Below, piece by piece: positions 17,630 through 46,500 of a DNA stretch of 64,000 nt. The DNA lies in contig NZ_JAGGKE010000004.1 of assembly GCF_017873555.1 (NCBI RefSeq), positions 1 to 64,000 on the forward strand. Direction: 5' to 3'. Position numbers and translations under genes: made by a program. The notes beneath the pieces were generated by a model. The model worked only from the letters and a program-made list of their open reading frames with translations. It made no database searches and was not told the origin of the DNA. This DNA is from Halorubrum trapanicum. Its GTDB lineage: Archaea > Halobacteriota > Halobacteria > Halobacteriales > Haloferacaceae. Within the stretch, counting starts at the first letter, position 1. Each line of letters opens with the position of its first letter.

Positions 17630-18097
17630 GTGACCACGTCGAACGCCGATCCGACCCGAGCGGACGACGCGTCGACCGCCGAGCGGGCCGAGTCGGACCT
17701 GTTGACCGGTCTCGCCGCCGTCCGAGAGCGACGCGGCACGGTCACCGTCGCCTGCCGCTACCGGTGCGCGACCGGGACGGCGTTCGGCGGCGAGTGGCGG
17801 GGCGTTCCGGTGGGACCGCTCCTCAACGACGCGCCGCCGGAGACGACCCACCTCCGCGCCGAGTCGGCGGACGGGTACCGGGCGCACGTCGCGGTGCGGA
17901 AGGCGCTGGACGCCGTCGTCGCGACGGAGCGCCTCGACGGGCCGGCTGACGGGCTGCCCCGGCTCGTCGAACCCGATTTCGACAGTTCGCGAACGGTGCG
18001 GGACCTCTCGGCGCTCGTCCCCGTCGCGCTTTCGGCCGACGCCGACCCGGAGACCGCGGTGGTCCGCGATGACCGAGCGGAGACGGGCGACGAGTGA
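17630..18097 (+). CDS. Molybdopterin oxidoreductase domain-like protein, first gene of the molybdoenzyme locus
   Basis: A 155-residue protein with GTG start at 17630. The core, RCATGTAFGGEWRGVPVGPLL followed by APPETTHLRAESADGYRAHV, resembles the small sulfite-oxidase-type molybdopterin domain (the part that reads WRGVPL..LL in SUOX enzymes). It lacks most of that fold and the molybdenum-ligating cysteine context is unclear, so it may be a cofactor-handling or non-catalytic relative. It is followed directly by mobB. A TATA-like GAATATATGAGG lies about 50 bases upstream. Confidence 0.6.
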   Translation: MTTSNADPTRADDASTAERAESDLLTGLAAVRERRGTVTVACRYRCATGTAFGGEWRGVPVGPLLNDAPPETTHLRAESADGYRAHVAVRKALDAVVATERLDGPADGLPRLVEPDFDSSRTVRDLSALVPVALSADADPETAVVRDDRAETGDE

Positions 18098-18118
18098 GAC
18101 GTGACGAGTGAGAGACCG

Positions 18119-18174
18119 ACGAACCCCACGAGAACGACCCATGAACCCCACGGAGAACGACCCATGAACCCCAC
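18119..18174 (+). repeat. 22-23-bp direct repeat at the mobB start
   Basis: Nearly identical units run from 18121 and 18143, with a partial third from 18166. Each unit contains GAACCCCACG, then AGAACGACCCAT, so each supplies an ATG. Only the last ATG (18164) is in frame with mobB. Confidence 0.7.
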
Positions 18175-18865
18175 GGCCCGCGACCGAACCGCGACTGAGG
18201 ACGGAGCGCCGGCCGACGACTCGCGAGCGGCCGCCGACCGATCACCCGACGCCGACCCGCTGCCGGTCGTCGTCGGCGTCGCGGGACCGAGCGGCGCGGG
18301 GAAGACGACGCTCGTCGAGCGGCTGGTCGACACGTTCGCCGCGGAAGGGGAGCGCGTGGCGACGGTGAAATCGATCCACCACGCGATCGAGCCGGACGAG
18401 CCGGGGACCGACACGCACCGCCACCGGACCGCGGGCGCGGCGGCGACGGTCGGTATCACGCCGCAACACGCCTTCGAGGTCAGTCCGCACGACCCCGACG
18501 GGACCGGCCCTGACGGCGATGTCGGCGATGTCGACTTCGACGAGGAGGACGGCTCCGAGGAGGATGACGGCTCCGAAGAGATCGGCGGCGCCGACGCGCG
18601 GAAGCGGGCCGCGCTCCGCGAGGCGATCGACCGGTTCGCGGCCGCGGGCCACGACCTCGTGGTCGTCGAGGGGTTCGCCGAGGTACCGATCCCGACCGTC
18701 CTCGCGGGCGACGCCGACCTGGAGACGGTCGCCGGCGAGATCGTCGCCGAGGGTGACGACCCGTTCAACACGGTCCGCGAGGCGGTCCGCGACGTCGACC
18801 CGCCGGAATCGCTCGGCCAGCCGGACGCGGCCGAACCGAACGCGACCGACACCCACGACAAATGA
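18164..18865 (+). CDS. mobB: Molybdopterin-guanine dinucleotide biosynthesis protein B
   Basis: MobB is a P-loop GTP-binding protein that assists conversion of molybdopterin to the guanine dinucleotide cofactor used by DMSO-reductase-family enzymes. The Walker A motif GVAGPSGAGKTTLVERL is followed by the MobB-typical RVATVKSIHHAIEPDEPGTD and HRHRTAGAAA. An acidic insertion of about 30 residues lies mid-protein, before AAAGHDLVVVEGFAEVPIP. ATG 18164 gives 233 residues; a GTG at 18101 is also possible. Its stop overlaps the next gene by four bases. Confidence 0.9.
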   Translation: MNPTARDRTATEDGAPADDSRAAADRSPDADPLPVVVGVAGPSGAGKTTLVERLVDTFAAEGERVATVKSIHHAIEPDEPGTDTHRHRTAGAAATVGITPQHAFEVSPHDPDGTGPDGDVGDVDFDEEDGSEEDDGSEEIGGADARKRAALREAIDRFAAAGHDLVVVEGFAEVPIPTVLAGDADLETVAGEIVAEGDDPFNTVREAVRDVDPPESLGQPDAAEPNATDTHDK

Positions 18866-20613
18866 GCGACGACACGCGCGACGAGACGGAGGAACCGGAC
18901 GCGACGACCGACGAGGAGTCGCAGCGGGGGGCTGACGGGGACGCCGGCGACGGCGATGTCGCCGGCGGCCACGGTGACGGCGACGGCCACGACCACGATC
19001 ACGGTGACGGCCACGCTCACGGCGACGACGGCGGGCCGCCGGGCGTTGAGACCCGCGAGGCGCCGCCGACCGACGACCCGAACCGGAACTACCGGCCGAT
19101 CGACTTAGCGGAGACCGGGAAGGGCGCCCTGCCGCGGAACCACCCGGCGCTGGAGAACGATGCTGGCGGACCGCAAGGCGGCGGTTCTCCGCCGGGCGGA
19201 GCCGGTGGACCACCGGGTAGCGCTGGCGAGCCGCCGGGAAGCGGTGGCGGCGGACCGCCCGGCGGTGCCGCGGGACCGCAGGGGAGCGGTTCTCCGCCCG
19301 GTGGCGCCGGCGGGGCCGACCTGCCGGACGCCGAGCGGATCCAGAACCGGATGGTCCGCGAGATCCGGTCGATCGACACGCCGCGCGGCGACCCCGTCTC
19401 CGCCGAGGTGCTCGCGGACCTGACCGTCGGGGACGGCGTGGTGACGGCGACGCTCGACGCGGGCGGACTCGCCCCCGCGGTCGCGACCGCGGTCGGCGAG
19501 CAGGTCCGCGGGGCCGGGCTGGCGATAGAGGGCGTCGACCACGTCCGGATCGACAGTCCGGAGCGGAGCCGCGTCGAGGGGGAGCTCAGCCCCGAGGGCG
19601 TCGACCGCGTCCTCGCAGTCACCGGCGCGAAGGGCGGCGCGGGCAAGAGCACGGTGACGATCGCGCTCGCCCGCGCGCTCCGCGAGGCGGGACTCGACGT
19701 CGGCGTGTTCGACGCCGACTTCCAGGCGCCCGACCTCACCGAGTACCTCGGCGCGAGCGACCCAGTTGTCTCGACGCCCACGGGGCGCCCCTCGCCCGCG
19801 TACGCGGACGGAATGCGGATCGTGAGCATCGACCTGGTCTCCGGCGACCGCCCGACCGCGTGGCGCGGCGCGATGACCCACGACGCGCTCGCGGACCTGC
19901 TGGGCGAGGCCGTCTGGGGCGACCTCGACGTGCTCCTCGTCGACCTCCCGCCGGGCGTCGGCGACGTGGGCCACACCGTCTTCTCGCGGGTCCCCGTCGA
20001 CGGCGCGGTGGCCGTGACGACCTCCTCGGACGTGAGCGTCCGGAACGTCACCCGGACGATAGGCCTGCTCGACGCCCGCGACGTGCCCGTCGCCGCCGTG
20101 GTCGAGAACAAGGCCCGCGAGAGCGAGGCGGTCGGTGACGACGCGGCTGAGGGCGGGGAGGAGGCGGGAGGAGACGGCGAGCCGGAGGCAGAAACAGCGG
20201 GCGACCGCGACCCGACCGACCTCGTCGCCGAGGCGAACGGCGACCCGGCGCTCGTCTCGCTCCCGTTCGACGCCGCCCTCCGCGACCCCGCGGGGTTCGA
20301 GTTCGACGCGCTCGCGGACGCGACCGCGACCGGTCTCTCGGACCTCCGGGCCGCAGTGACGGGATTCCTCGACGACGCCGGGTCGGACGTGCCCGAGGAC
20401 GCCGTCGACATCAGCGGGCTGCCGGACCGGCTCCGCGAGCAGCAGGCGCTCATCGAGGCCGGGGCGGCCCCGGACGGCCCGCGGCCGCTCCTCGTCGACC
20501 GGGGCGACGACCGGGTCGGCGAGGCGCTCGACGACGAGTTCGCTGTCGACGTCGAACCGGTCGACGACGACCGGTCGGTGGTGCGCGTCGAGGGCGACGC
20601 CGGTTCGGCCTGA
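18862..20613 (+). CDS. Mrp/ApbC-type P-loop ATPase, cysteine-free, with His- and Gly/Pro-rich N-terminus
   Basis: A 583-residue protein. Residues 1-60 are acidic with a His-rich stretch (HGDGDGHDHDHGDGHAHG). Residues 100-155 are Gly/Pro-rich repeats around PPGGAGG. Residues 155-240 resemble the MIP18/DUF59 domain usually fused to Mrp. The ATPase follows, with deviant Walker A GAKGGAGKST and LLVDLPPGVGDV. Canonical Mrp proteins carry a CxxC after the ENM segment to hold a bridging Fe-S cluster; here that segment is ENKARESEAV and the protein contains no cysteine at all. Its location between mobB and the catalytic subunit suggests a maturation role other than ordinary cluster carriage. Confidence 0.85.
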   Translation: MSDDTRDETEEPDATTDEESQRGADGDAGDGDVAGGHGDGDGHDHDHGDGHAHGDDGGPPGVETREAPPTDDPNRNYRPIDLAETGKGALPRNHPALENDAGGPQGGGSPPGGAGGPPGSAGEPPGSGGGGPPGGAAGPQGSGSPPGGAGGADLPDAERIQNRMVREIRSIDTPRGDPVSAEVLADLTVGDGVVTATLDAGGLAPAVATAVGEQVRGAGLAIEGVDHVRIDSPERSRVEGELSPEGVDRVLAVTGAKGGAGKSTVTIALARALREAGLDVGVFDADFQAPDLTEYLGASDPVVSTPTGRPSPAYADGMRIVSIDLVSGDRPTAWRGAMTHDALADLLGEAVWGDLDVLLVDLPPGVGDVGHTVFSRVPVDGAVAVTTSSDVSVRNVTRTIGLLDARDVPVAAVVENKARESEAVGDDAAEGGEEAGGDGEPEAETAGDRDPTDLVAEANGDPALVSLPFDAALRDPAGFEFDALADATATGLSDLRAAVTGFLDDAGSDVPEDAVDISGLPDRLREQQALIEAGAAPDGPRPLLVDRGDDRVGEALDDEFAVDVEPVDDDRSVVRVEGDAGSA

Positions 20614-20832
20614 CGGTCGGCCCGCCGCGGTCGGCGCCGTCGTTCGGGACCCCGTCGATCGTTTAAGTGAATCACACCGAAGACGTTCACCAGACCTGTC
20701 ACGGTACAGGAACTGAAGGGCCGTTATAATCGCCGGGCGGTCCTCCGTCACGGATGCGATGACCTGGAACCGATCGGTCCGGTACGGGTGGAGAGGACCC
20801 GACGCCCCGGCGGTTCGGCGGGGGTGGTCCGG
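20614..20832 (+). promoter_or_regulatory. 219-base upstream region of the catalytic subunit gene
   Basis: Two TATA-like elements are visible: GATCGTTTAAGTG at about 20658-20669 and CCGTTATAATCG near 20720. A dyad with arms GTGAA (20667-20671) and TTCAC (20686-20690) overlaps the end of the first. The second TATA element would start a transcript with a leader of about 85 bases. Either could give the structural genes their own, perhaps oxygen- or substrate-controlled, promoter. Confidence 0.4.
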
Positions 20833-23800
20833 ATGAGTCGTGCCGACGACGAGGAGAGCGACGGCGAGGTCAGCCGGCGCGACGTGTTGACCGCGGCGGG
20901 CGCCGTCGCCGGCATCGGCGCCGCGGGCTACCTCGGCAGCACCCGTCTCACGATGGGTGACGACCCCGGGCCGTTCCCGGGCCGGCGGAGTCCCTTCGAG
21001 GCGTACCCGAACGCGGAGTGGGAGTCGCAGTACCGGGAGGTGTGGAGCCGGGACGACTCCTTCATGCTCACCTGTACGCCCAACGACACGCACAACTGCT
21101 ACCTCGAAGCCAGCGTGAAAAACGGGCAGATCACGCGGCTCGGTCCCTCGATGAACTACGGCGAGGCGACCGACCTCCAGGGGAACCAGGCCTCCCAGCG
21201 CTGGGACCCTCGCGTCTGTAACAAGGGGTTGGCGATGGTCGAGCGGTTCTACAGCGACCGGCGCGTCCAGGCCCCGATGGTCCGCGAGGGCTTCCGCGAG
21301 TGGGTCGAAGAGGGCTTCCCGCGGAACCCCGACGGCTCCATGCCCGAGGAGTACGCGAACCGCGGCGAGGACGCCTTCGTCGAGGTCGACTTCGACGAGG
21401 CGTACGAGCTGGCGGCGAAGACACTCGTCGAGCTGGCGACCCACTACTCCGGCGAGTCGGGCGCGAACAGCCTGCTCGAACAGGGGTACGACGAGCGCAT
21501 CGTCGAGGAGATGGACGGCGCCGGCGTCCGGTCGATGAAGTTCCGCGGCGGGATGCCGCTGCTCGGCCTGATCAAGCTGTTCGGCCAGTACCGGAACGCC
21601 AACTCGATGGCGCTTCTGGACAACTACGTCCGCGACGTCGACGAAGAGGAGGCGGTCGGCGCGATGGGGCTGGACAACTACTCGTTCCACACCGACCTGC
21701 CCCCGGGCCACACGATGGTCACGGGCCAGCAGACCGTCGACTTCGACCTCGCGAACGTCGAGCACGCCGACCAGCTCGTCGTCGCGGGGATGAACTACCT
21801 CACCTCGAAGATGGCGGACTGCCACTGGCTCACCGAGGCCAAGGTGAAGGGGACGAAGCTCACCGGCGTCTTCACCGACTACAACGCGACGGCCTCGAAG
21901 TGCGACGAGGTCGTCACGGTTCGGCCCGCCACCGACTCGGCGCTCTTCCTCGGCGTCGCCCGCGAGCTGATCGAAAACGACCGCTACGACCCCGAGTTCG
22001 TCCGGGCGAACACCGACCTGCCGCTGTTAGTTCGGATGGACGACACCCGCCTGCTGCGCGCGAGCGACGCCTTCGCGGACTACGAGCCGGCCGACCTAGA
22101 GAAGACCGAGACGGTCGGCGACGACGGCGACCGGCCCACCGCCGGCCGGACCGACATCGCCGAGCAGGTGATAGACGAGCAGCTCCGCGACGAGTGGGGC
22201 GACTTCGTCGTCCGCGACGAGGAGACCGGCGAGCTGGAGCCGGTGACCCGCGACGACGTCGGCGACGACTTCGACGTGTCCGCGACGATCGAGGGGAGCT
22301 TCGAGGTCGAGCTGGCCGACGGCGAGACGGTCAAGGTGCGGACCGTCTTCGACCTCATCCGCGAGCACCTCGCGGAGACGTGGGACCCCGAGGGCACCGC
22401 CGAGGTGACCGGGACCCAGCCCGAGGCGGTCGAGAACCTCGCGACCGACATCGCCGACAACAAAGAGGAGACGCTGATCCTCACGGGGATGGGACCGAAC
22501 CACTACGCGAACGCGGACCTGAAAGACCGGGCCGTGTTCCTCGTGGCGTCGCTCACGCGCAACGTCGGCTACCAGACCGGCAACGTGGGGTCCTACTCCG
22601 GGAACTACCGGGCCGCCTACTTCAACGGACTCGAACAGTACACGAAGGAGAGTCCGTTCGACATCGAGTCCGACCCCGACGCCGAGGCGACCGTCGACCA
22701 GCGGTACGGCATGCACTCGGCGCACTTCTACACCAACCTCGACAAGCCGCTGAAGGTCGACGGCGAGTACTTCCAGGGCGACTCGCACATGCACACGCCC
22801 ACGAAGTCGATCTGGGTGTCGGGGTCGAACTCCATCCTCGGCAACGCGAAGGGGGCCTACAAGATCATCGAGCGGATGCTCCGGAACGGGAAGATAGAGG
22901 CGTTCTTCACCAACGAGTGGTGGTGGACGATGACCTGCGAGTACTCGGACATCGTCTTCCCCGCCGACTCGTGGGCGGAACACCACGTCCACGACATGAC
23001 CGCCTCGGTCACCAACCCCTTTATCACGACGATGCCCAAGACGGGGATCGACCGGATCTACGACACCCGCAACGACGCCCAACACTACCAGGGCGTCGCC
23101 GAGAAGCTCGCGGCGATCACCGGCGACGACCGGTTCGAGGCGTACTGGCAGTTCATCGACGAGGAGGAGCACCGCGCGAAGCCGTACCTTCAGCGGATCG
23201 TCGACCACTCGAACACGGTGACGGGGTACGACGTCGAGAACCTGCTCGAAGACGCCCGCGAGGGGACGCCCGCGATCATCATGACGCGGTCGTACCCGAA
23301 ACACGTCGGCAACGAGCAGACGCTCGACGACGACCCGTGGTACACCAAGACCGGCCGGCTGGAGTTCTTCCGCGAGGAGACGGAGTTCACCGAGGCCGGC
23401 GAGAACATCCCGCTCCACCGGGAGCCGATGGACGCGACGCCGTACGAGCCGAACGTCATCGTCGACGACAGCGACAGCCCGGTGATCGACCCCGAGACGC
23501 CCGAGGACCGCGGGTGGGACGGCGACGAGGTCGAAGACAGCAACGACCGCCAGGTGCGGAACGTGGTCCGGTCGCCCGACGAACTGACCGACAGCAGCCA
23601 CCCGCTCAACGACCTCGACGAGGGGTACGAGTACGTGTACATGACGCCGAAGTACCGCCACGGCACCCACTCGTTCGGCAGCGACCTGCCGAACATCGCG
23701 GTGTGGTGGTCGAACTTCGGCGACATGAACCGGAACGACCAGCGGCAGCCGTACTTCGGCGAGGGGTACATCGAGATGAACCCCGCCGACGCGCTCGCGG

Positions 23801-24357
23801 AGGGGCTCACCGACGGCGACTACGTGTGGGTCGACGCCGACCCGCAGGACCGCCCGTACCCCGACTGGGAGGAGAGCGACGACTCCTACGACGTCGCCCG
23901 CGCGATGATGCGCGTCCGGTTCCAGCCGAGCCTCCCGCAGGGCGTCACCCGCAGCTGGATGAACGTGACGAACGCCTCCCACAAGTCGGTCGAGGCGACC
24001 GAGAGCCGCGACGACGGGATGGCGAAGGCCGAGGACACCAACTACGTCGGGATGTACCGGCAGGGCGGCCACCAGTCGGCGACGACGACGTGGCTCCGCC
24101 GCACGTGGCTCACCGACACGATGCCGCGGAAGAACCTCGCCGGGCTCAACCTCGACCACGGGTTCGAGCCGGACGTCCACGCCGCCAACGGCGCCCCGAA
24201 GGAGGCGTTCGTGAAGGTCGAGAAGGCGGAGGACGGCGGCGTCGACGGCGAGGGCGACTGGCGTCCGGTCGAGGAGGGCGTCCGCCCGACGAACGAGGAC
24301 GAGCGCATGGAGAGCTACCTCGACGGCGGCTTCGTCGGCCGCTCCGAGTCCGACTGA
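20833..24357 (+). CDS. Tat-exported type II DMSO-reductase-family molybdopterin oxidoreductase, catalytic subunit
   Basis: An 1174-residue catalytic subunit starting at ATG 20833. A Tat signal, SRRDVLTAAGAVAGIGAAGY, indicates folded export across the membrane. The FS0 region reads LTCTPNDTHNC with a later DPRVC, so the ligand positions are C-x3-D-x3-C and a distal C; the second position is Asp. NarG-group features include YSGNYRAAYFNG and NEWWWTMTCEYSDIVFPADS. The product groups by appearance with nitrate, (per)chlorate, selenate, dimethyl sulfide and ethylbenzene enzymes. The substrate cannot be assigned. No heme b gamma subunit or membrane anchor is encoded nearby. The electron-transfer subunit follows after 66 bases. 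Confidence 0.88.
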   Translation: MSRADDEESDGEVSRRDVLTAAGAVAGIGAAGYLGSTRLTMGDDPGPFPGRRSPFEAYPNAEWESQYREVWSRDDSFMLTCTPNDTHNCYLEASVKNGQITRLGPSMNYGEATDLQGNQASQRWDPRVCNKGLAMVERFYSDRRVQAPMVREGFREWVEEGFPRNPDGSMPEEYANRGEDAFVEVDFDEAYELAAKTLVELATHYSGESGANSLLEQGYDERIVEEMDGAGVRSMKFRGGMPLLGLIKLFGQYRNANSMALLDNYVRDVDEEEAVGAMGLDNYSFHTDLPPGHTMVTGQQTVDFDLANVEHADQLVVAGMNYLTSKMADCHWLTEAKVKGTKLTGVFTDYNATASKCDEVVTVRPATDSALFLGVARELIENDRYDPEFVRANTDLPLLVRMDDTRLLRASDAFADYEPADLEKTETVGDDGDRPTAGRTDIAEQVIDEQLRDEWGDFVVRDEETGELEPVTRDDVGDDFDVSATIEGSFEVELADGETVKVRTVFDLIREHLAETWDPEGTAEVTGTQPEAVENLATDIADNKEETLILTGMGPNHYANADLKDRAVFLVASLTRNVGYQTGNVGSYSGNYRAAYFNGLEQYTKESPFDIESDPDAEATVDQRYGMHSAHFYTNLDKPLKVDGEYFQGDSHMHTPTKSIWVSGSNSILGNAKGAYKIIERMLRNGKIEAFFTNEWWWTMTCEYSDIVFPADSWAEHHVHDMTASVTNPFITTMPKTGIDRIYDTRNDAQHYQGVAEKLAAITGDDRFEAYWQFIDEEEHRAKPYLQRIVDHSNTVTGYDVENLLEDAREGTPAIIMTRSYPKHVGNEQTLDDDPWYTKTGRLEFFREETEFTEAGENIPLHREPMDATPYEPNVIVDDSDSPVIDPETPEDRGWDGDEVEDSNDRQVRNVVRSPDELTDSSHPLNDLDEGYEYVYMTPKYRHGTHSFGSDLPNIAVWWSNFGDMNRNDQRQPYFGEGYIEMNPADALAEGLTDGDYVWVDADPQDRPYPDWEESDDSYDVARAMMRVRFQPSLPQGVTRSWMNVTNASHKSVEATESRDDGMAKAEDTNYVGMYRQGGHQSATTTWLRRTWLTDTMPRKNLAGLNLDHGFEPDVHAANGAPKEAFVKVEKAEDGGVDGEGDWRPVEEGVRPTNEDERMESYLDGGFVGRSESD

Positions 24358-24423
24358 CGCCCGCGAGCCGCGACGCTGCGGAACCGCGACCACAGAACGA
24401 CACCACCACACCAACTCAGACCA

Positions 24424-25614
24424 ATGGCAACCGTCTACAACTGGCAGATCGGCCGCGAGATGGAGTATCCCTACGCCGAGAACCGCCCGGACCGACAGTG
24501 GGGGGCCGTCTTCGACCTCAACAAGTGTATCGCGTGCCAGACGTGTACGCTCTCGTGTAAGACCACCTGGACCCACGGCGAGGGGCAAGAGCACATGTTC
24601 TGGAACAACGTCGAGTCGAAGCCGTACGGCGCCCACCCGCTCGGCTGGGACCAGGAGATCTTAGACCGGCTCGGCGTCCAGGAGTGGGGCTCGGACGGCG
24701 TCTACGACGGCGACACCATCTGGGAGGCCAACGACGTCGACTGGGAGGAGACCAGCCCGACCGAGGAGCACATCGCCAACGAGGGGTACGTCGAGGGATA
24801 CATGCCGGAAGACCAGGACTGGGCGCACCCGAACCTCGGCGAGGACGAGCCGGCGGGCGAGGCGTTCGCGGGCGACACCCACATCGAGGGGGAAGAGCAC
24901 CCGATGTGGTTCTTCTATCTCCCGCGGGTGTGCAACCACTGTACGTACGCGGGCTGTGCCGGCTCCTGTCCCGTTCAGGCGATCTACAAGCGCCAGCAGG
25001 ACGGGATCGTCCTCATCGACGAGGAGAGCTGTCAGGCGCAGCTCCAGTGCGTCCAGGCGTGCCCGTACAAGAAGTCGGTGTTCAACCAGGCGAAGGGGAA
25101 CTCCCAGAAGTGCGTCGGCTGTTACCCCAAGGTCGAGCAGGGGCGCGTCCCGCAGTGCTTCGAGAACTGCCTCGGGAAGATCCGCCAGCACGGCTGGGTG
25201 AACCCGCCGGAGGAGGCGGACCCGACGAACCCGATCGACTACCTCGTCCACGAGGCCGAGGTGGCGCTGCCGCTGTACCCCCAGCTCGGCTTGGAGCCGA
25301 ACGTCTACTACATCCCGCCGATCAACGTCCCGGACGACTACCTCTACCAGATGTTCGGGCCGGGCGTCGAGGAGGCGAAGGCGACGTACCGCCGCGCCCG
25401 CGACGGCCGCGCCGAGGAGCGGAAGCTCCGCGGCCTGCTCCACCTGATGGGCAGCACGGAGTGGCGCATCGAGGAGTTCGAGGTGACCGAAGACCGGGCG
25501 ATCGGCTACGACGAGAACGGCCGCACCGTCGCGAAGGTGCCGATGGAGGAACCGCGCGCCGAGCGACCCAAGTTCGAGCAGGGCGTCGACGCCTACCGGC
25601 TCGACGTGACGTGA
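24424..25614 (+). CDS. Four-cluster Fe-S electron-transfer subunit (NarH/PcrB/DdhB/SerB-like)
   Basis: A 396-residue beta subunit that passes electrons to or from the molybdenum subunit. Four cysteine groups are visible: CIACQTCTLSCK near residue 39, CNHCTYAGCAGSCP near 175, CQAQLQCVQACP near 205, and CVGCYP with CFENC near 235-255. The segments WNNVESKPYG and EPNVYYIPP match the type II DMSO-reductase-family beta subunits more closely than classical NarH. It has no signal peptide and presumably travels with the Tat-tagged catalytic subunit. It sits between that subunit and the chaperone gene. Confidence 0.92.
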   Translation: MATVYNWQIGREMEYPYAENRPDRQWGAVFDLNKCIACQTCTLSCKTTWTHGEGQEHMFWNNVESKPYGAHPLGWDQEILDRLGVQEWGSDGVYDGDTIWEANDVDWEETSPTEEHIANEGYVEGYMPEDQDWAHPNLGEDEPAGEAFAGDTHIEGEEHPMWFFYLPRVCNHCTYAGCAGSCPVQAIYKRQQDGIVLIDEESCQAQLQCVQACPYKKSVFNQAKGNSQKCVGCYPKVEQGRVPQCFENCLGKIRQHGWVNPPEEADPTNPIDYLVHEAEVALPLYPQLGLEPNVYYIPPINVPDDYLYQMFGPGVEEAKATYRRARDGRAEERKLRGLLHLMGSTEWRIEEFEVTEDRAIGYDENGRTVAKVPMEEPRAERPKFEQGVDAYRLDVT

Positions 25615-25626
25615 TCACCCAGACCG

Positions 25627-26748
25627 ATGACCGACCACACCGACGACGAGACCGAGACCGGCGCGCGTGTCGACGACGAGTCCGCGGTCGGCGACGAGTC
25701 CGCGGCCGCCGGCTGGGACGCGGACCTCTCGCCCGCCGCCGAGCGGGACGTCCACCGGGGGCGGCTCTACGAGGCGCTCGCGACCGCGCTCGACCGCCCG
25801 CGGGCGACCGCGGCCGACGCGGAGCGCGATCCGGACCCGACCGTGCTTGGCGAGGTCATCGCGGAGGCGGCCGCGGAAATCGCCGACGGCGACGCCGACG
25901 AGGGCGACGCCGAGCGGGCCGATAGCCGGCGGGAGCTGCTCGACGCCGCCGCCGCGGTCACCGACCGCCTCCCGGACGATCCGACCGAACTCGAACGCAC
26001 GTTCGCCCGGACGTTCGGGGTCGAGACCGACGGCGCGGTCGACCGCTACGAGGTCGCGTACGCGCCCGGCGGCGTCACCGTCAACACGGACCGAATGGCC
26101 GACGCGGCCGGCTTCTACCGGGCGTTCGGCCTGGAGAACGCCGGCGGGGCGCGCGACCGCGCCGACGCGGTCTCCGTCCAGCTGGAGTTCTGTTCGCACC
26201 TCGCGGCCCAGCGCGCGTACCTCCGCGAGACCGGCGACGAGACGGGCGCCGAGCGCGTCACCGAGGCGACGGCCGCGTTCCTCGAGGACCACGTCGGCCG
26301 GTGGGTGCCGCGGTTCGCGGCCGACGTCCGCGAGGCGGCCGACGGGGGACCGTTCCCCGCGCTCGCGGACGCGCTGGGGGCGTTCGTCGACCTGGAAACC
26401 GAGCGGTTCGGCGTCGAACCCGAGGTCTTCGAGGAGCAGCCCGACGGTCCCGTCGAGAGCCTGACGGGCGTCGACACCGACGCCGACGGCCGGCTCGACC
26501 TGCGCTGCGGCACCGGCGGCAACGGGTCGAGCGCGAGCGAACCGAACGACCACCCGGCCGCGACCGGCTGCGGCGCCGCCGGCCGCGAGAACTTCACCGG
26601 CTCGCCCGGCCAGCGCGCCGCGCCGCCGGGAGAGACGCCGAAGCCGCCGAGCGAAACCCCTGACGCGGACGCCGGGGGCGCCGCCGACGCCGCCGAGGAC
26701 GAGACACGGACGTCCGAGGGGCTGCCGAGCGAGCCGCCGTCGAACTGA
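25627..26748 (+). CDS. TorD/DmsD-family molybdoenzyme chaperone
   Basis: A 373-residue protein that starts 12 bases after the Fe-S subunit gene. Residues 45-260 form the helical TorD-like fold, with RLYEALATALDRP, LERTFARTFGV, the YEVAYAPGG loop and a VQLEFCSHLAAQ helix. These chaperones bind the catalytic subunit and its Tat signal until cofactor is inserted. Residues 1-40 are acidic, and the last 110 residues are a low-complexity Gly/Pro/Ala/Glu tail with an isolated CG..CGAAG. The tail is longer than in most relatives and of unknown use. Confidence 0.85.
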   Translation: MTDHTDDETETGARVDDESAVGDESAAAGWDADLSPAAERDVHRGRLYEALATALDRPRATAADAERDPDPTVLGEVIAEAAAEIADGDADEGDAERADSRRELLDAAAAVTDRLPDDPTELERTFARTFGVETDGAVDRYEVAYAPGGVTVNTDRMADAAGFYRAFGLENAGGARDRADAVSVQLEFCSHLAAQRAYLRETGDETGAERVTEATAAFLEDHVGRWVPRFAADVREAADGGPFPALADALGAFVDLETERFGVEPEVFEEQPDGPVESLTGVDTDADGRLDLRCGTGGNGSSASEPNDHPAATGCGAAGRENFTGSPGQRAAPPGETPKPPSETPDADAGGAADAAEDETRTSEGLPSEPPSN

Positions 26749-41669: not shown

Positions 41670-42125
41670 ATGCCGACGAACAGCGAGGTCGAGATGTCGC
41701 CGGCCGAGGTGGACGCGCTCCTCTCTCGCCACGAGACGGGCGTACTCGCGCTCGCGCGCGACGACGCGCCGTACGCCATCCCGATCTCCTACGGATACGA
41801 CGCGGACGACCGCGCCCTGTACCTCCGGCTGGTGTCGACGCCCGACAGCGAGAAGCGCGAGTTCCTCGCGTCGACGCCGCAGGCCCGGATCGTGGTGTAC
41901 GAGGACGAAGCGGACGAGTACGCAAGCGTCGTCGGCGTCGGCGCCCTCGAACGGGTCGACCTCGACGAGCTCACCCCGGAGACGATCGCGCAGTACGGCG
42001 AGGCGCAGCGCCCCCTCTTCGAGATCTGGGCCGACGACAAGCCGGACCTCGACATCGAGCTCTACCGCTTCGAGCCCGAGAAACTGACCGGGCGCACGGT
42101 CGTCGTCGAGCGCGACGAGGAGTAA
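41670..42125 (+). CDS. Pyridoxamine 5'-phosphate oxidase-family flavin-binding protein
   Basis: A 151-residue split-barrel protein from ATG 41670. The N-terminal VDALLSRHETGVLALARDDA and YAIPISYGYDADDRALYLRL are the family opening. The segment VYEDEADEYASVVGVGALER forms the second half of the barrel. Such proteins bind FMN or F420 in dimers and reduce or sense small molecules; the substrate is unknown. There is no obvious operon partner. Confidence 0.88.
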   Translation: MPTNSEVEMSPAEVDALLSRHETGVLALARDDAPYAIPISYGYDADDRALYLRLVSTPDSEKREFLASTPQARIVVYEDEADEYASVVGVGALERVDLDELTPETIAQYGEAQRPLFEIWADDKPDLDIELYRFEPEKLTGRTVVVERDEE

Positions 42126-42141
42126 GGAGTCACAACGTCGT

Positions 42142-42552
42142 TCAGCGCCAGACAGTCGACTCAGTCACGAACTCCTCGTCGTTGGTGACGATCGCTTCAG
42201 TACCCCGGACGCGATGGTTGGCGATAAGCAGCGCGTCGTGGAGGGTGTATTGGTCGATCAGACTCCCATACACCGCGAGGTCGTGGTCGTCGCTCGGAGC
42301 GATCCGTACCGGTCCGTCGGTGACGAGTCCACGTAACACCGCGTTCGGCGTCGTGTCGACCCCGACGCCTGCGATCGACTCCTTGTTGACCGCGGTCCAG
42401 ATCGCCTCGCTGACGGCGACTGTCGGCGCCTCGACGATGTCGACACCGCGCTCGGCGCGTTCGAACACGTCGTCGGCAGCGGACGGCAGGCTGTCGACGA
42501 GGTACCGAGCCATCGCGACGCCATCGACGGTGTAGCGGGTCACGGCTGCCAC
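42142..42552 (-). CDS. PIN-domain toxin (VapC-like)
   Basis: A 136-residue PIN-domain protein, a predicted ribonuclease toxin. The conserved acidic residues lie in YTVDGVAMARYLVD (first Asp), APTVAVSEAIW (Glu), YTLHDALLIA (Asp) and VTNDEEF (Asp). The most upstream start is GTG 42552, which overlaps the AbrB-like gene by 13 bases; a second GTG nine bases later is equally possible. The pairing with AbrB rather than a ribbon-helix antitoxin is common in archaea. Confidence 0.88.
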   Translation of the reverse strand: MAAVTRYTVDGVAMARYLVDSLPSAADDVFERAERGVDIVEAPTVAVSEAIWTAVNKESIAGVGVDTTPNAVLRGLVTDGPVRIAPSDDHDLAVYGSLIDQYTLHDALLIANHRVRGTEAIVTNDEEFVTESTVWR

Positions 42553-42818
42553 TCGCTTCGACGCTTCTCACGGATCTCGGCTTCCATCTCCGCGGCCATC
42601 TCCTCACGCTTCGCTTCGGAGACGTCCTCGTCGACGAGCATCCCGCGGCCCGCCGACCCCGTCGCCTTCCGGACGCGAATTCCGTCGTCAGTCTTCTCCC
42701 AGCGAATTTCGTCGCCTTCCTCCAGTCCGAACTCCTCGCGGAGCGCTTTCGGGATCGTCACCTGTCCCTTCCGCGTGATACGGGTCGTTCGATCGTCGCT
42801 TTCGCTGTCAGTACTCAT
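42540..42818 (-). CDS. AbrB/MazE-type antitoxin
   Basis: A 92-residue protein from ATG 42818. The swapped-hairpin AbrB domain is RITRKGQVTIPKALREEFGL followed by EEGDEIRWEKTDDGIRVRK. The C-terminal helical arm (SEAKREEMAAEMEAEIREKR) probably wraps the PIN toxin. It should neutralise the toxin and repress the operon. Repeated GTACT motifs in front of it are candidate operators. Stop and toxin start overlap. Confidence 0.9.
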   Translation of the reverse strand: MSTDSESDDRTTRITRKGQVTIPKALREEFGLEEGDEIRWEKTDDGIRVRKATGSAGRGMLVDEDVSEAKREEMAAEMEAEIREKRRSEWQP

Positions 42819-42850
42819 GCGAAGTACTACGCACTGTACTACATTAAATA
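42811..42850 (-). promoter_or_regulatory. Repeated GTACT motifs in the antitoxin promoter
   Basis: GTACT occurs at 42811, 42824 and 42836, the last two within direct copies of GTACTAC (42824-42830 and 42836-42842). Spacing of 12-13 bases is close to one helical turn. A+T-rich ATTAAATAC next to them (42844-42852) serves as TATA on the minus strand. The arrangement fits autorepression by the AbrB-like antitoxin. Confidence 0.5.
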
Positions 42851-42907
42851 CACCGAGTGTTGAGCGACGGTCGCAGATGGGCAGTATCGAGTCGATCAGG
42901 ACCACAG

Positions 42908-43102
42908 TCAAACGTCCGAGAGTGACGTTAGCCCGTCTCGATCCGCGTCCTCCAACTCCTGAAAACGTCGTTCGAGGTCGCGTCGTCGGCGCTGCTGTGC
43001 GAGTTGCTTCAGTAGGTCGTCGTACGTCTGGCCCGGTTCCTTGAGCTCGTGGAGCACCTTCCGAGTTTCCTCGGTTACCGGAACGTGTTCGTCCGCCGGC
43101 AT
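42908..43102 (-). CDS. Small antitoxin-like protein without a matching toxin
   Basis: A 64-residue protein from ATG 43102: EHVPVTEETRKVLHELKEPG, then TYDDLLKQLAQQRRRRDLER and an acidic tail. It matches the layout of VapB-like or DUF7557-type archaeal antitoxins, in which an N-terminal DNA-binding strand is followed by a helix that contacts the toxin. The toxin gene expected just downstream is absent; instead the AbrB/PIN pair follows after 90 bases. It may be an orphan or may serve the same PIN toxin. Confidence 0.75.
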   Translation of the reverse strand: MPADEHVPVTEETRKVLHELKEPGQTYDDLLKQLAQQRRRRDLERRFQELEDADRDGLTSLSDV

Positions 43103-43237
43103 AGTTCTGGACGGACTACAGGGCAGACAGTTGTAACAGTTATCCCGGATCCCGACTCTCGGTGAGATTCTATCCGAACGCGCTCGCCGGGTGTCGTACC
43201 GGGATCACGAGCGCCGCCGCTGGCCAAGCGAGGCGCG

Positions 43238-43277
43238 ATAAAGAAAAACCGCGTGTGGGTCGGCCCGCGAGGGCCGA
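43238..43277 (-). terminator. Hairpin plus T-rich terminator of the surface glycoprotein gene
   Basis: Downstream of the stop codon at 43317 the arms TCGGCCC (43260-43266) and GGGCCGA (43271-43277) pair around GCGA. On the minus strand a T tract follows (GGTTTTTCTTTATC, about 43238-43251). This resembles an efficient terminator behind a strongly expressed gene. Confidence 0.6.
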
Positions 43278-43316
43278 TAGTTCGAAGCTACGAGTCGCGA
43301 CCGTTAGGCAACGATG

Positions 43317-46313
43317 TTACTCGTTGCGGCGGGTCGCGAGCAGCGCAGCGGCGATGAGGGCAACGAGCGCGACGAGCGCACCGAAGCCGGGCGTTCCGTC
43401 GTCGGTGGAGTCGTCGGTACCGTTACCGTCGCCACTGGAGTCGTCTCCGGTGGAGTCGTCCCCGCTGGAGTCGTCACCGGTGGAGTCGTCTCCGCTGGAG
43501 TCGTCACCGGAGCCGTCGTCGCCGGCGGCTTCGATGGTCAGCGTGCCAGTGGCCTCATCGTCGTCGGTCGCGACGCCGTGCGTGTAATCGCCGGCTTCGA
43601 GACCGGACGTGTCGGCCGTGAACTCGACGGTCGTGCTGTTACCACCCGCGAGGGTGACTTCAGTCGTGTCGAGTTCGTCGCCGTCGAGCGTGAGCGCGAC
43701 GGTCTGGGTGGCCTCCTCGCTGCCGGTGTTCTCGATCGTCGCCGAAACGTCGACCGAGTCACCAGCAGTCGCGGTGGCCTGTTCGGGGTTCAGTTCGGAC
43801 ACTTCGAGGAAGGCGGCCTGGCCGACTTCTTCGACCACGGTACCGTCTTCCTCAGCGTCGAAGGTGGACTGCTGCGCGGTCACGGTGAACGTGTCGTTCA
43901 CCGAGGCGTCGCTCAGGTCGAGACCCGTTGCCTCGAATGTGCCGTCAGCCTGGACGGTCACGCCTTCAGCGGACTGGACGAAGCCGGGCGAGACACCAGA
44001 GTCGGAGCGCACGCGCACCGTGAACTCCTGACCGGGCGCGACGTTCGTCGTGCCCGTGATGGACTGGTTCTCAGCGGCCTGGACTTCGACCGGCGTGTCG
44101 AATTCGCCCGTCGCGTCCTGGTACTCGAACGTCGCCGTGGCGGTCTCGTAGAACTCGGAGAGGTCGCCGTCGGCGTCGTCAAGCTCGTCCTCGTCGGGGT
44201 CGAGCAGGCGCGGGTCCTGAACCTGGACGCGGACCTCGAAGGCGTCCTCGTCGGCGATCGACTCGCTGCCGAGGTCGAGGTTGTCCTGGTCGAACGCGAT
44301 GTAGTACGAACCCTCAGTCGAGATGACGCTGATGTCGCCGTCATCGAACATCGACGTGATGTCAGCGGTCTTGCGCTGCGAGTTCGGCGCGGTGGTGTCG
44401 GCCGTCTGCCGGATGCGCAGGTCGACAGCACCGTTATCGACTAGAGTCTCGAGGTCGCCGTTCAGTTCGAGGGCACCCTCGAGTCCGGTCGCAGTAAGCT
44501 CGTGGATGAGGACGTCGCCCTCAGCCAGCGAACTCGTCTCGATGACGGTATCGTTCTCGACACCGTTTGTGATGTCCTCGACGTTCTCGACATCCTCGAA
44601 GACGTCATCCGAGGTGGTCCACAGCTGGAAGTCCTCGACAGAGCGCTCTTCGAGTTCGAGGTCGCCCACCGAGTCGGAGTTACCCTTGGCGGTCTGGACG
44701 AAGCTCGTGTCGCTAATCTCGAACGGGTACGTACCCGCCGCGAGCATGTTTTCGAGGTTGGTCTCGCTCTCGTTCACGAAGCTGACTGACGCGTCACTGT
44801 CCTGGTCGGCCAGGAACACAACGTCGCTGCCGGAGACGTTAGATGAAGTGGTGTTGCCAGCGATGTAGGTGTTGAAGCCGACCGTGACGTTGTCCTCGCC
44901 GTCGGCGTCGACGGTGACGTTGGTCTCGTAACCAACCTCATCGTCGTCACCGATTGTGAGGTACGCCATGTCCCGGTCGCCCTGGAAGTTGATCGTGATG
45001 TTCGCAACGTCACCGCGCTGCTCGGTCACGAAGCTCTCCTCGAAGGTGATGTCACCCTCGGGCGCTTCGACAACATCGAAATCACCGGTCTGGGCACTAA
45101 TACCCGAGTTATCATCGGTGACGTTGATCGTGTAGGTATCCGTCTCGCTGACGGTCCCGAAGTCGACCTCCGCGTTACCGTCGGAGTCGATCTGAGCGTT
45201 GAGATCGTCAACGACGTCACCGTCACTGTCGATGAGTTCCGCGGTGATGGGGCGGTTGATTTCGTCAGCCGTGACCGACGCAGTCACGTTGTCGTTGGTC
45301 GTGAACTCGTCCTCGTCGCTCTCGACTCCGAGGCCGAGGTCGCCAAGCTCAATGACTCTCTCAACGTTACCGTTGGTGACGTTGTAGTCACCAGTTTCGA
45401 GGCCATCAGTATCGAACACGTAGACCTGACTGTTGACGCCAGTTCCACGGGTGACACCAGTGCTGGGCCCCTCAATATCGATCGAGTCGCCTTCATTGGC
45501 TTCGAGAGCAATGTTCTCTCCGGAGAGCGCATCAACGGTGGAGGCGTTGGACGTCGTGTCGACCGACGTCGGCGCGAACGTGACGTCAAAGTCGTCGTCG
45601 CTCACGCTGTTTCCGGCGAGATCGGTAACGCCGCCCTCAATGGAGATGTTCTCCACGTTGTTGTAAGGCTGACCGGTCGGAACAAGCACCTGACCGTCAA
45701 TCCCTTCGACAATTCCCGAATTGACGTCAACGGTAGTTCCGTTAGCGAGGTTGATGTCGGCCTCAGCATTACTCTGAGTGACAACGACATCATTGTCGTA
45801 GGCGACCTCAACTACGACGCTACCGTTGAGGGCGCTGTCGTAGTGAGTCGCCTTCCGCGGGTCGTCACTCGTGTCGTCGATGGTCAGCTGAACATTGGTG
45901 TCAAAGGAACTGTCACCGTCATTCAGCGAGGCGTTCTCGTAGGCGTAGACATCGTAATCGCCTTCCCCGAGGTCGTCCGTTTCGAGGTCACCGACAGCAA
46001 TGTCAGAGGCTCCACCAGTGTAACCCGTGGCGGTGATGTTTGCCTCACCAGTGTCGAACTCACCGTTCCCGTTTTCGTCAACGAAGACGAAGAGTCCGGG
46101 AGTGTCTGCATCTGTATCATCTACCTGTACGCCTGTAAGATTGTTTCCAGACTGGATAGCGTAATCGGCGTCGTCGCCGTTACCAATATCCAGGTTGGAA
46201 CCAGCCGCCGCGGCGGGAGCCGCAGCGAATCCAACTGCGACCATGGAGACAACCATGACCGCCGCGAAGAAGACTGCGTTAGCCTTCTTGCGTGTGGTAT
46301 TGTCGTTTGTCAT
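43317..46313 (-). CDS. csg: S-layer-type surface glycoprotein with PGF-CTERM anchor
   Basis: A 998-residue secreted protein. Residues 1-45 are a Sec signal (KKANAVFFAAVMVVSMVAVG, cleavage after AAPAAAAG). The long acidic ectodomain contains many N-X-S/T sequons (for example NNLTG, ANITAT, NVTVDADGEDNVTV, NTTSSN) and repeated Ig-like strands. A Thr/Ser/Asp-rich repeat linker (DDSSGDDSTG repeated) follows, then TPGFGALVALVALIAAALLA and ATRRNE, the tripartite PGF-CTERM signal processed by archaeosortase A with lipid attachment. This is the architecture of the haloarchaeal cell-surface S-layer glycoprotein. ATG 46313 is preferred to the start ten codons upstream. Codon use is less G+C-rich than neighbours. 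Confidence 0.9.
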   Translation of the reverse strand: MTNDNTTRKKANAVFFAAVMVVSMVAVGFAAAPAAAAGSNLDIGNGDDADYAIQSGNNLTGVQVDDTDADTPGLFVFVDENGNGEFDTGEANITATGYTGGASDIAVGDLETDDLGEGDYDVYAYENASLNDGDSSFDTNVQLTIDDTSDDPRKATHYDSALNGSVVVEVAYDNDVVVTQSNAEADINLANGTTVDVNSGIVEGIDGQVLVPTGQPYNNVENISIEGGVTDLAGNSVSDDDFDVTFAPTSVDTTSNASTVDALSGENIALEANEGDSIDIEGPSTGVTRGTGVNSQVYVFDTDGLETGDYNVTNGNVERVIELGDLGLGVESDEDEFTTNDNVTASVTADEINRPITAELIDSDGDVVDDLNAQIDSDGNAEVDFGTVSETDTYTINVTDDNSGISAQTGDFDVVEAPEGDITFEESFVTEQRGDVANITINFQGDRDMAYLTIGDDDEVGYETNVTVDADGEDNVTVGFNTYIAGNTTSSNVSGSDVVFLADQDSDASVSFVNESETNLENMLAAGTYPFEISDTSFVQTAKGNSDSVGDLELEERSVEDFQLWTTSDDVFEDVENVEDITNGVENDTVIETSSLAEGDVLIHELTATGLEGALELNGDLETLVDNGAVDLRIRQTADTTAPNSQRKTADITSMFDDGDISVISTEGSYYIAFDQDNLDLGSESIADEDAFEVRVQVQDPRLLDPDEDELDDADGDLSEFYETATATFEYQDATGEFDTPVEVQAAENQSITGTTNVAPGQEFTVRVRSDSGVSPGFVQSAEGVTVQADGTFEATGLDLSDASVNDTFTVTAQQSTFDAEEDGTVVEEVGQAAFLEVSELNPEQATATAGDSVDVSATIENTGSEEATQTVALTLDGDELDTTEVTLAGGNSTTVEFTADTSGLEAGDYTHGVATDDDEATGTLTIEAAGDDGSGDDSSGDDSTGDDSSGDDSTGDDSSGDGNGTDDSTDDGTPGFGALVALVALIAAALLATRRNE

Positions 46314-46500
46314 TGTGTGTTGTGTTGTTCTGCGTCGCGACACCCGTGCTTTGTCCGCGTCTGGGTCGCCCGTCCATCGCTCGCACCGACAGGATCAGCA
46401 ACGTACGACCGGACTTGACCCGGATTACTCACAGATGGTATCGCATTCTGCCTGCGGGTAGGGCTGCGACCTATCCTTTTAGCGTTCGGTATAAATGCTT
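46314..46500 (-). promoter_or_regulatory. Promoter and long 5' leader of the surface glycoprotein gene
   Basis: GGTATAAATGC at about 46488-46498 is a good TATA box on the minus strand (GCATTTATACC). A start about 25 bases downstream would give a leader near 150 bases, unusual in haloarchaea, where most messages are leaderless. The leader ends in a run of ACACA-type repeats just before the ATG. Confidence 0.6.

Follow-up and report, generated by a model that had tools for sequence, protein, structure and literature searches.

The window analysed here is a 64,000-nucleotide stretch of the Halorubrum trapanicum genome (positions 1 to 64,000 of contig NZ_JAGGKE010000004.1), and its gene at 18862..20613 (+ strand) encodes a 583-residue ATPase of the Mrp/Nbp35 type, with an N-terminal MIP18-like and a C-terminal degenerate DUF2249 domain, that lacks the CxxC motif. 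It belongs to a clade in which CxxC is absent from 27/27 homologs, 26 of which adjoin the same type of molybdoenzyme, and the trees indicate that the motif was lost once, at the base of a clade spanning many genera. A preliminary description, made from the window alone, had recognised a cysteine-free Mrp-type ATPase that keeps its Walker motifs, cannot bridge a cluster through CxxC and sits in a molybdoenzyme locus, and each of these points holds. The search for homologs and their neighbourhoods which it proposed was run, and it tied the clade to one kind of molybdoenzyme locus.

Loss of CxxC among relatives

We collected homologs across 293 genomes of the order and loci of the molybdoenzyme alpha subunit across 392 genomes, with the named loci taken from GTDB contigs, flanks included. 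Handles beginning with L and G denote the loci and genomes sampled (the source genome, G000, is 3.08 Mb in 30 contigs and encodes haloarchaeal marker proteins such as NreA_Halo and RNaseHI_Halo), and 14 named loci treated as duplicates of G-handle loci were counted once. Three groups of Mrp proteins lie beside three kinds of alpha subunit: A1 (the window's kind), A2 and NAR, the last being that of haloarchaeal nitrate reductase operons. Beta-subunit identity to the window's is 73-79% in A1, 63-65% in A2 and 41-43% in NAR, and NAR alpha subunits are 25-29% identical to the window's.

A CxxC-less Mrp lies within the fetched stretch in 26/28 distinct A1 alpha loci (window included). As for the two exceptions, the genome of L119 (G232) encodes a CxxC-less Mrp elsewhere (L043), and L124 runs into a contig end 462 bases from the start of alpha. 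For A2, an Mrp with CxCC is present in 12/15 loci, the exceptions being two loci in G182, which has a CxCC Mrp elsewhere (L171), and L134, which is cut by a contig end. The NAR-linked Mrp proteins in the alignment carry CxxC (5/6) or CxC (1/6); these loci were found via their Mrp, so NAR linkage is not an independent count.

In a tree of 47 rows, the window protein, L062, L043 and 24 further A1 proteins group on a single branch (support 100/99). The branch persists at 100/98 when the loop and switch I columns are removed and further NAR rows added, in a tree built without the long-branched L061 and L133 and without seven near-duplicate rows. Near-copies occur among the 27 rows, which therefore amount to fewer than 27 independent witnesses. 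Two separate losses of CxxC, one in the window protein and L062 and one in the rest, with long branches then drawing the two together, were also considered and are unsupported: a topology placing the window protein and L062 outside A1+A2 is rejected (p-AU 0.009). The end branches in this test are both long (0.47-0.48). Common descent with the NAR-linked proteins, including the three-domain order, is supported by trees, alignments and a 98% hhalign match of the C-termini.

The clade is under purifying selection, with dN/dS of 0.07-0.24 in eight close CxxC-less pairs and 0.09-0.21 in four CxxC-bearing A2 pairs. The preliminary description had held that homologs with CxxC in the same loci would suggest local decay in this strain. 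Such relatives do exist, as 12/12 aligned A2 proteins carry a Cys motif, but a single clade-wide loss followed by purifying selection excludes decay in one strain. The same figures bear on the idea that the whole clade is a slowly decaying relic, retained through its operon position. CxxC, the DUF2249 core and, in most members, an Asp of switch I are indeed gone; yet selection is purifying, Walker A and switch II are intact in 27/27 members, and one genome retains an orphan copy (L043) away from the operon, all of which makes a relic most improbable.

The complete absence of cysteine is by itself a weak signal, because it is ordinary for G000 proteins. At the sampled Cys frequency of 0.59%, the Poisson chance of a Cys-free protein of 583 residues is about 0.03, and in a sample of 359 gene calls (20 stretches of G000 plus the window) 117/359 proteins have no cysteine, including 9/33 in the 500-700-residue class. 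The telling fact is that the CxxC loop is missing, clade-wide, from a family defined by CxxC, which is far from chance.

Two other departures were seen among the relatives. The A2 Mrp proteins (L054, L057, L060, L072, L126-L129 and others) retain CxCC, but in their switch II DMPAG[ST]DD takes the place of DLPPGTGD (12/12), so that what they have given up of the ATPase differs from the A1 case. CxC replaces CxxC in NAR-linked Mrp proteins from two genera (L059 in the alignment and the further NAR loci L205-L210), which indicates that this family's Cys motif is in flux in several lineages.

Domains and motifs of the window protein

The upstream MobB gene ends at 18865, so that its stop and the ATG start of the Mrp-like open reading frame overlap in the four bases ATGA. 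This overlap supports the chosen start and hence also the His-rich N-terminus. PF10609 (Mrp/NUBPL ATPase) matches residues 247-417 (E 1.4e-46) over profile positions 2-174 of 246 only, and the CxxC region of the profile lies within the part left unmatched.

The nucleotide-binding motifs are present. The deviant Walker A is GAKGGAGKST (residues 255-264; 19624..19653, +), with KGGxGK[ST]T in 27/27 clade members; the first G of the quoted Mrp/Nbp35 consensus, GKGGhGK[ST] (PMC6345978), is A in the window protein. Switch I is FDADFQAPD (residues 283-291; 19708..19734, +). Here the GPN of switch I has become [AS]P in 27/27 members (APD in the window protein), and DAN replaces DAD in 25/27, with the window protein and L062 keeping DAD. 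Switch II/Walker B is intact as DLPPGVGD (residues 361-368; 19942..19965, +), and 27/27 members have DLPPG[IV]G[DE].

An AlphaFold2 model of the core (residues 151-583, from a 42-row alignment) has a mean pLDDT of 85 and a pTM of 0.73. Where the CxxC loop would be, the window protein has an acidic loop (residues 417-466; 20110..20259, +), and pLDDT is low over much of it. This region bears on whether the protein could be a half-partner in Fe-S delivery, either by pairing with a canonical CxxC Mrp or by holding a cluster through non-Cys ligands or cysteines of the client. The architecture of Fe-S carriers (MIP18-like domain plus ATPase) is retained, the client's Fe-S motifs are still in place, and the genome has canonical paralogs, all of which would suit such a role. 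However, the clade has no conserved Cys column (the best reaches 13/27), 8/27 cores contain no Cys at all, and what replaces the CxxC loop is a variable stretch, modelled with low confidence in the window protein. We therefore consider a half-partner unlikely.

The flanking domains are more diverged. The MIP18/DUF59-like domain named in the preliminary description (about residues 156-240; 19327..19581, +) is well supported for the family, as PF01883 is matched by 39/42 aligned members and the core model has an alpha/beta domain at its N-terminal end, but the window protein itself has no PF01883 match at E<=0.1. The degenerate DUF2249 domain (residues 509-583; 20386..20610, +) was found with hhalign: the C-termini of the CxxC-less proteins match the DUF2249 domain profile of NAR-linked homologs with 98% probability. 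DUF2249 is TusA-like. PF10006 is matched by 6/6 NAR-linked homologs and by 7/42 family members at E<=0.1, the window protein having no match of its own at that threshold, and the NDHDP core present in most NAR homologs is lost from the CxxC-less proteins. Comparing the modelled C-terminal domain with the PDB gave no significant match (best E 0.065, with SepF and TusA-type domains among the weak matches), so the DUF2249 link stands on the profile comparison.

The N-terminus is a Gly/Pro/Asp-rich, low-complexity segment. Its residues 37-53 (18970..19020, +) include seven His, a density that one other protein in the sample of 359 equals and none exceeds. The preliminary description was right about this richness, but its term "tail" was wrong, as the segment is N-terminal. 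Bacterial HypB proteins can be His-rich, and the stretch could likewise deliver a metal (Ni, Zn, Cu or Mo, for instance); a fold relative, the HypB of Thermococcus, serves nickel insertion. However, the alignment shows no such stretch in the nearest relative, L062, or in the other CxxC-less proteins, and a few CxxC-bearing NAR homologs have a short His-bearing spacer at a different position, so the stretch resembles a drifting low-complexity segment. Private to the window protein, it is accessory at most, and metal binding through it, as first proposed, is very unlikely to be the mechanism.

Client enzyme and proposed role

The genes that follow encode a molybdoenzyme. Its alpha subunit (20824..24357, +) is an NXR-like member of the type II DMSO-reductase family with a Tat-type N-terminus and the FS0 motif CTPNDTHNC, and its beta subunit (24424..25614, +) is a 4Fe-4S dicluster protein with 15 Cys. 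Against solved chains, alpha scores 750 bits with NxrA (7b04_B, residues 55-1171), 152 with perchlorate reductase and 99-105 with NarG chains; for a haloarchaeal NAR alpha (L055), the scores are 426 with NxrA and 274 with perchlorate reductase. FS0 and the Asp of HTDLPPG, at the place of the Mo ligand, align with NxrA and with PcrA, in which Asp198 is a Mo ligand (PMC8301774). Judged by these scores and alignments, the client alpha (of the enzyme at 20824-25614) resembles NxrA far more than NarG.

Reviews describe longer NarG sequences for Natrialbaceae and, for two species, an unusual FS0 pattern (PMC8400030, PMC8301774), which would fit NXR-like proteins filed as NarG. If so, a haloarchaeal enzyme apparently classed with NarG is NXR-like and has a maturation gene of its own. 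NarG of the L055 type (76-83% identity) occurs in 2/34 genomes with an NXR-like alpha (G047 and G154) and had no match in the other 32/34, other NarG types not having been searched for; this count covered 34 of 35 alpha-bearing genomes, leaving out G096 (61% complete). In G154 (L206 3309-6469) and G079 (L208 1713-4972), the L055-type NarG is split over two frames, by a frameshift or an assembly error. Outside the haloarchaea, a Dehalococcoidia contig (L078 8857-15304) encodes alpha and beta subunits 49-51% identical to the window's, plus a chaperone, with no Mrp in the stretch examined.

One candidate explanation was that CxxC loss tracks the loss of a cluster in the client. It was rejected, as the Fe-S ligands are the same in A1 and A2: FS0 is C[TRQ]PNDTH[NH]C in both (CSPNDTHAC in NxrA), and beta subunits of full length contain 15 or 16 Cys in either group. 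Set aside from these counts were L057 and L124 (partial beta), L069 and L132 (alpha N-terminus not covered) and L123 (20 Cys, because its stop-to-stop frame overreads). With its ligands unchanged across the loss of CxxC, the client still needs clusters, and the Tat-type N-terminus of alpha means that cofactors must be inserted inside the cell.

Known proteins offer partial parallels. With VIA-align, the core model matches ApbC best (8zkc, Z 28.6, 3.0 A over 243 residues), then the ATPase-type HypB of Thermococcus (5aun, Z 25.9, 33% identity over 230 residues) and Cfd1 (Z 25.0), with MinD and NifH at about 20-22 and FleN also a structural relative. The window protein shares with the Mrp/Nbp35/ApbC carriers (ApbC 8zkc and the G000 paralogs L001 and L002) the fold, the deviant Walker A and the MIP18-like domain, but it differs from them in lacking CxxC, in having APD for GPN in switch I, in its extra C-terminal domain and in being bound to an operon. 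Desulfovibrio MrpORP is likewise an Mrp ATPase fused with a second domain, but it has retained CxxC and does bind a [4Fe-4S] cluster (PMC6345978).

For the missing motif, the parallel is the HypB of Thermococcus kodakarensis (3vx3, 5aun), an Mrp-type ATPase without CxxC at the same place. It helps nickel insertion in metalloenzyme maturation, and no nickel site was identified in it (PMC7055735). This HypB differs in belonging to a nickel/hydrogenase pathway with HypA and in being a 248-residue chain without MIP18-like or DUF2249-like domains. For the operon, the parallel is E6P09_17415 of H. mediterranei, a protein of the same kind in the same type of operon, described as a P-loop NTPase named iron-sulfur carrier, with DUF2249, in the nar operon; its gene is induced under denitrifying conditions (log2FC 3.60; PMC11218638). 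The NAR-linked homologs that we examined, which do not include E6P09_17415 itself, differ in keeping CxxC or CxC and in having as client a NarG of another subgroup.

Since Walker A and switch II are kept, CxxC is dropped, and HypB provides a precedent, we favour, with middling confidence, a dedicated cytosolic maturation ATPase that would act as a gate on the cofactor loading or folding of the NXR-like molybdoenzyme ahead of Tat export. We infer that the clade gave up Fe-S carriage and kept the nucleotide switch. The protein descends from an ancestor shared with the nar-operon Mrp-DUF2249 proteins of haloarchaea, its clade having lost the CxxC loop once, and would most likely work as a nucleotide-driven dimer. 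It may dock on the apo-alpha/beta complex and on the NarJ-like chaperone through its MIP18-like and DUF2249-like ends, and gate or proofread cofactor loading or folding before export, while Fe-S clusters would be supplied by the two canonical CxxC Mrp paralogs or other carriers. The window protein might also deliver a metal or the Mo cofactor, a reasonable idea given the solved precedent of the CxxC-less Mrp-type HypB of Thermococcus.

Three points weigh against the maturation ATPase. The link between CxxC-less Mrp and molybdoenzyme is genomic only. The likeness to HypB lies in the fold and in a single missing motif, and Z scores near 20 are common among P-loop ATPases of this class. In MinD, the residue for hydrolysis is the second Asp of the switch I DxD (D40), and the DAN of 25/27 members may indicate weak or absent hydrolysis, in which case an ATP-driven cycle might not be general in the clade, although the window protein keeps DAD.

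The change to DAN would also fit a non-hydrolysing switch in a regulator or nitrate/redox sensor, i.e., a MinD/FleN-like protein ending in a DUF2249 derivative, whose task would be control of the operon or of the enzyme and not maturation. FleN and MinD are structurally related, and the Thermus DUF2249 proteins DrpA and DrpB are proposed nitrate sensors (PMC11218638). However, the C-terminal domain is without the NDHDP core of most NAR homologs, and the MIP18-like domain and gene order indicate an assembly factor, so a sensor seems quite unlikely.

A bolder form of the maturation ATPase, which we offer tentatively and as the lesser likelihood, is an Fe-S carrier turned Mo-cofactor insertase or gatekeeper for NXR-like enzymes, i.e., the molybdenum counterpart of the Mrp-type HypB. 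The switch would then move the chaperone and the apoenzyme loaded with bis-MGD, and members with DAN would be binding switches without hydrolysis.

The role of nucleotide hydrolysis in Mrp/Nbp35 proteins is stated to be unclear in PMC6345978. A clade under selection that has kept the ATPase but not the cluster site, with sisters that keep the site and client ligands that are unchanged, is a natural experiment on the role of the ATPase. The H. mediterranei nar-operon Mrp-DUF2249 protein is already in print as an induced gene. A search of the open-licence literature found no paper on CxxC-less Mrp proteins of molybdoenzyme operons or on NXR-type enzymes of Natrialbaceae, nor did it turn up the CxxC-less clade, a link between that clade and NXR-like enzymes, or the change to DAN.

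Cassette and surrounding genes

The Mrp gene is the second in a cassette ordered MobB–Mrp–alpha–beta–chaperone on one strand. MobB (18101..18865, +; PF03205, TIGR00176) has a possible start at 18164, and the chaperone (25627..26748, +; PF02613, TIGR03482) is a NarJ/TorD-like protein of the type II enzyme kind. A short PF00174 (Oxidored_molyb) protein is encoded upstream (17630..18097, +); homologs of it lie near Mrp in some NAR loci, and one stands alone at the same site in one relative. After the chaperone, on the same strand, come TFB and then NreA.

The cassette (17630-26748) sits between RNase HI and TFB, which adjoin without it in 11/12 same-genus genomes. The twelfth, G004, has a Tat-type open reading frame and a PF00174 gene at the site, with no MobB, Mrp or enzyme. 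Among the 392 genomes searched for alpha loci, the rest of the genus and family show no alpha subunit at E<=1e-150, and MobB has no match in the eight listed same-genus genomes other than G000. Most simply, the cassette is a horizontal gain; less simply, it was lost in all relatives.

MobB and alpha are no more than 7 kb apart in 21/28 loci of the CxxC-less type (window included), 2/15 A2 loci and 0/6 NAR loci. The idea that CxxC was lost when MobB joined was rejected, because the placement of MobB is a site effect. In Natrialbaceae, MobB occupies a recurring chromosomal site adjoining apparent molybdate-type transporter genes (judged only by where open reading frames start). That same MobB is also the site of the NAR operons of genus g25, which encode an Mrp with CxC, in 6/6 fetched loci (L205-L210). 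Operons with a Cys motif share the site, so the MobB link is no evidence on CxxC loss.

Two other observations concern the genome more widely. G000 encodes a two-domain multicopper oxidase (L173 4389-5354, contig C13), possibly a copper nitrite reductase. In the window itself, G+C falls to about 60-65% at 42000-46500, around a large Thr/Ser/Asp-rich open reading frame (43317-45656, - strand).

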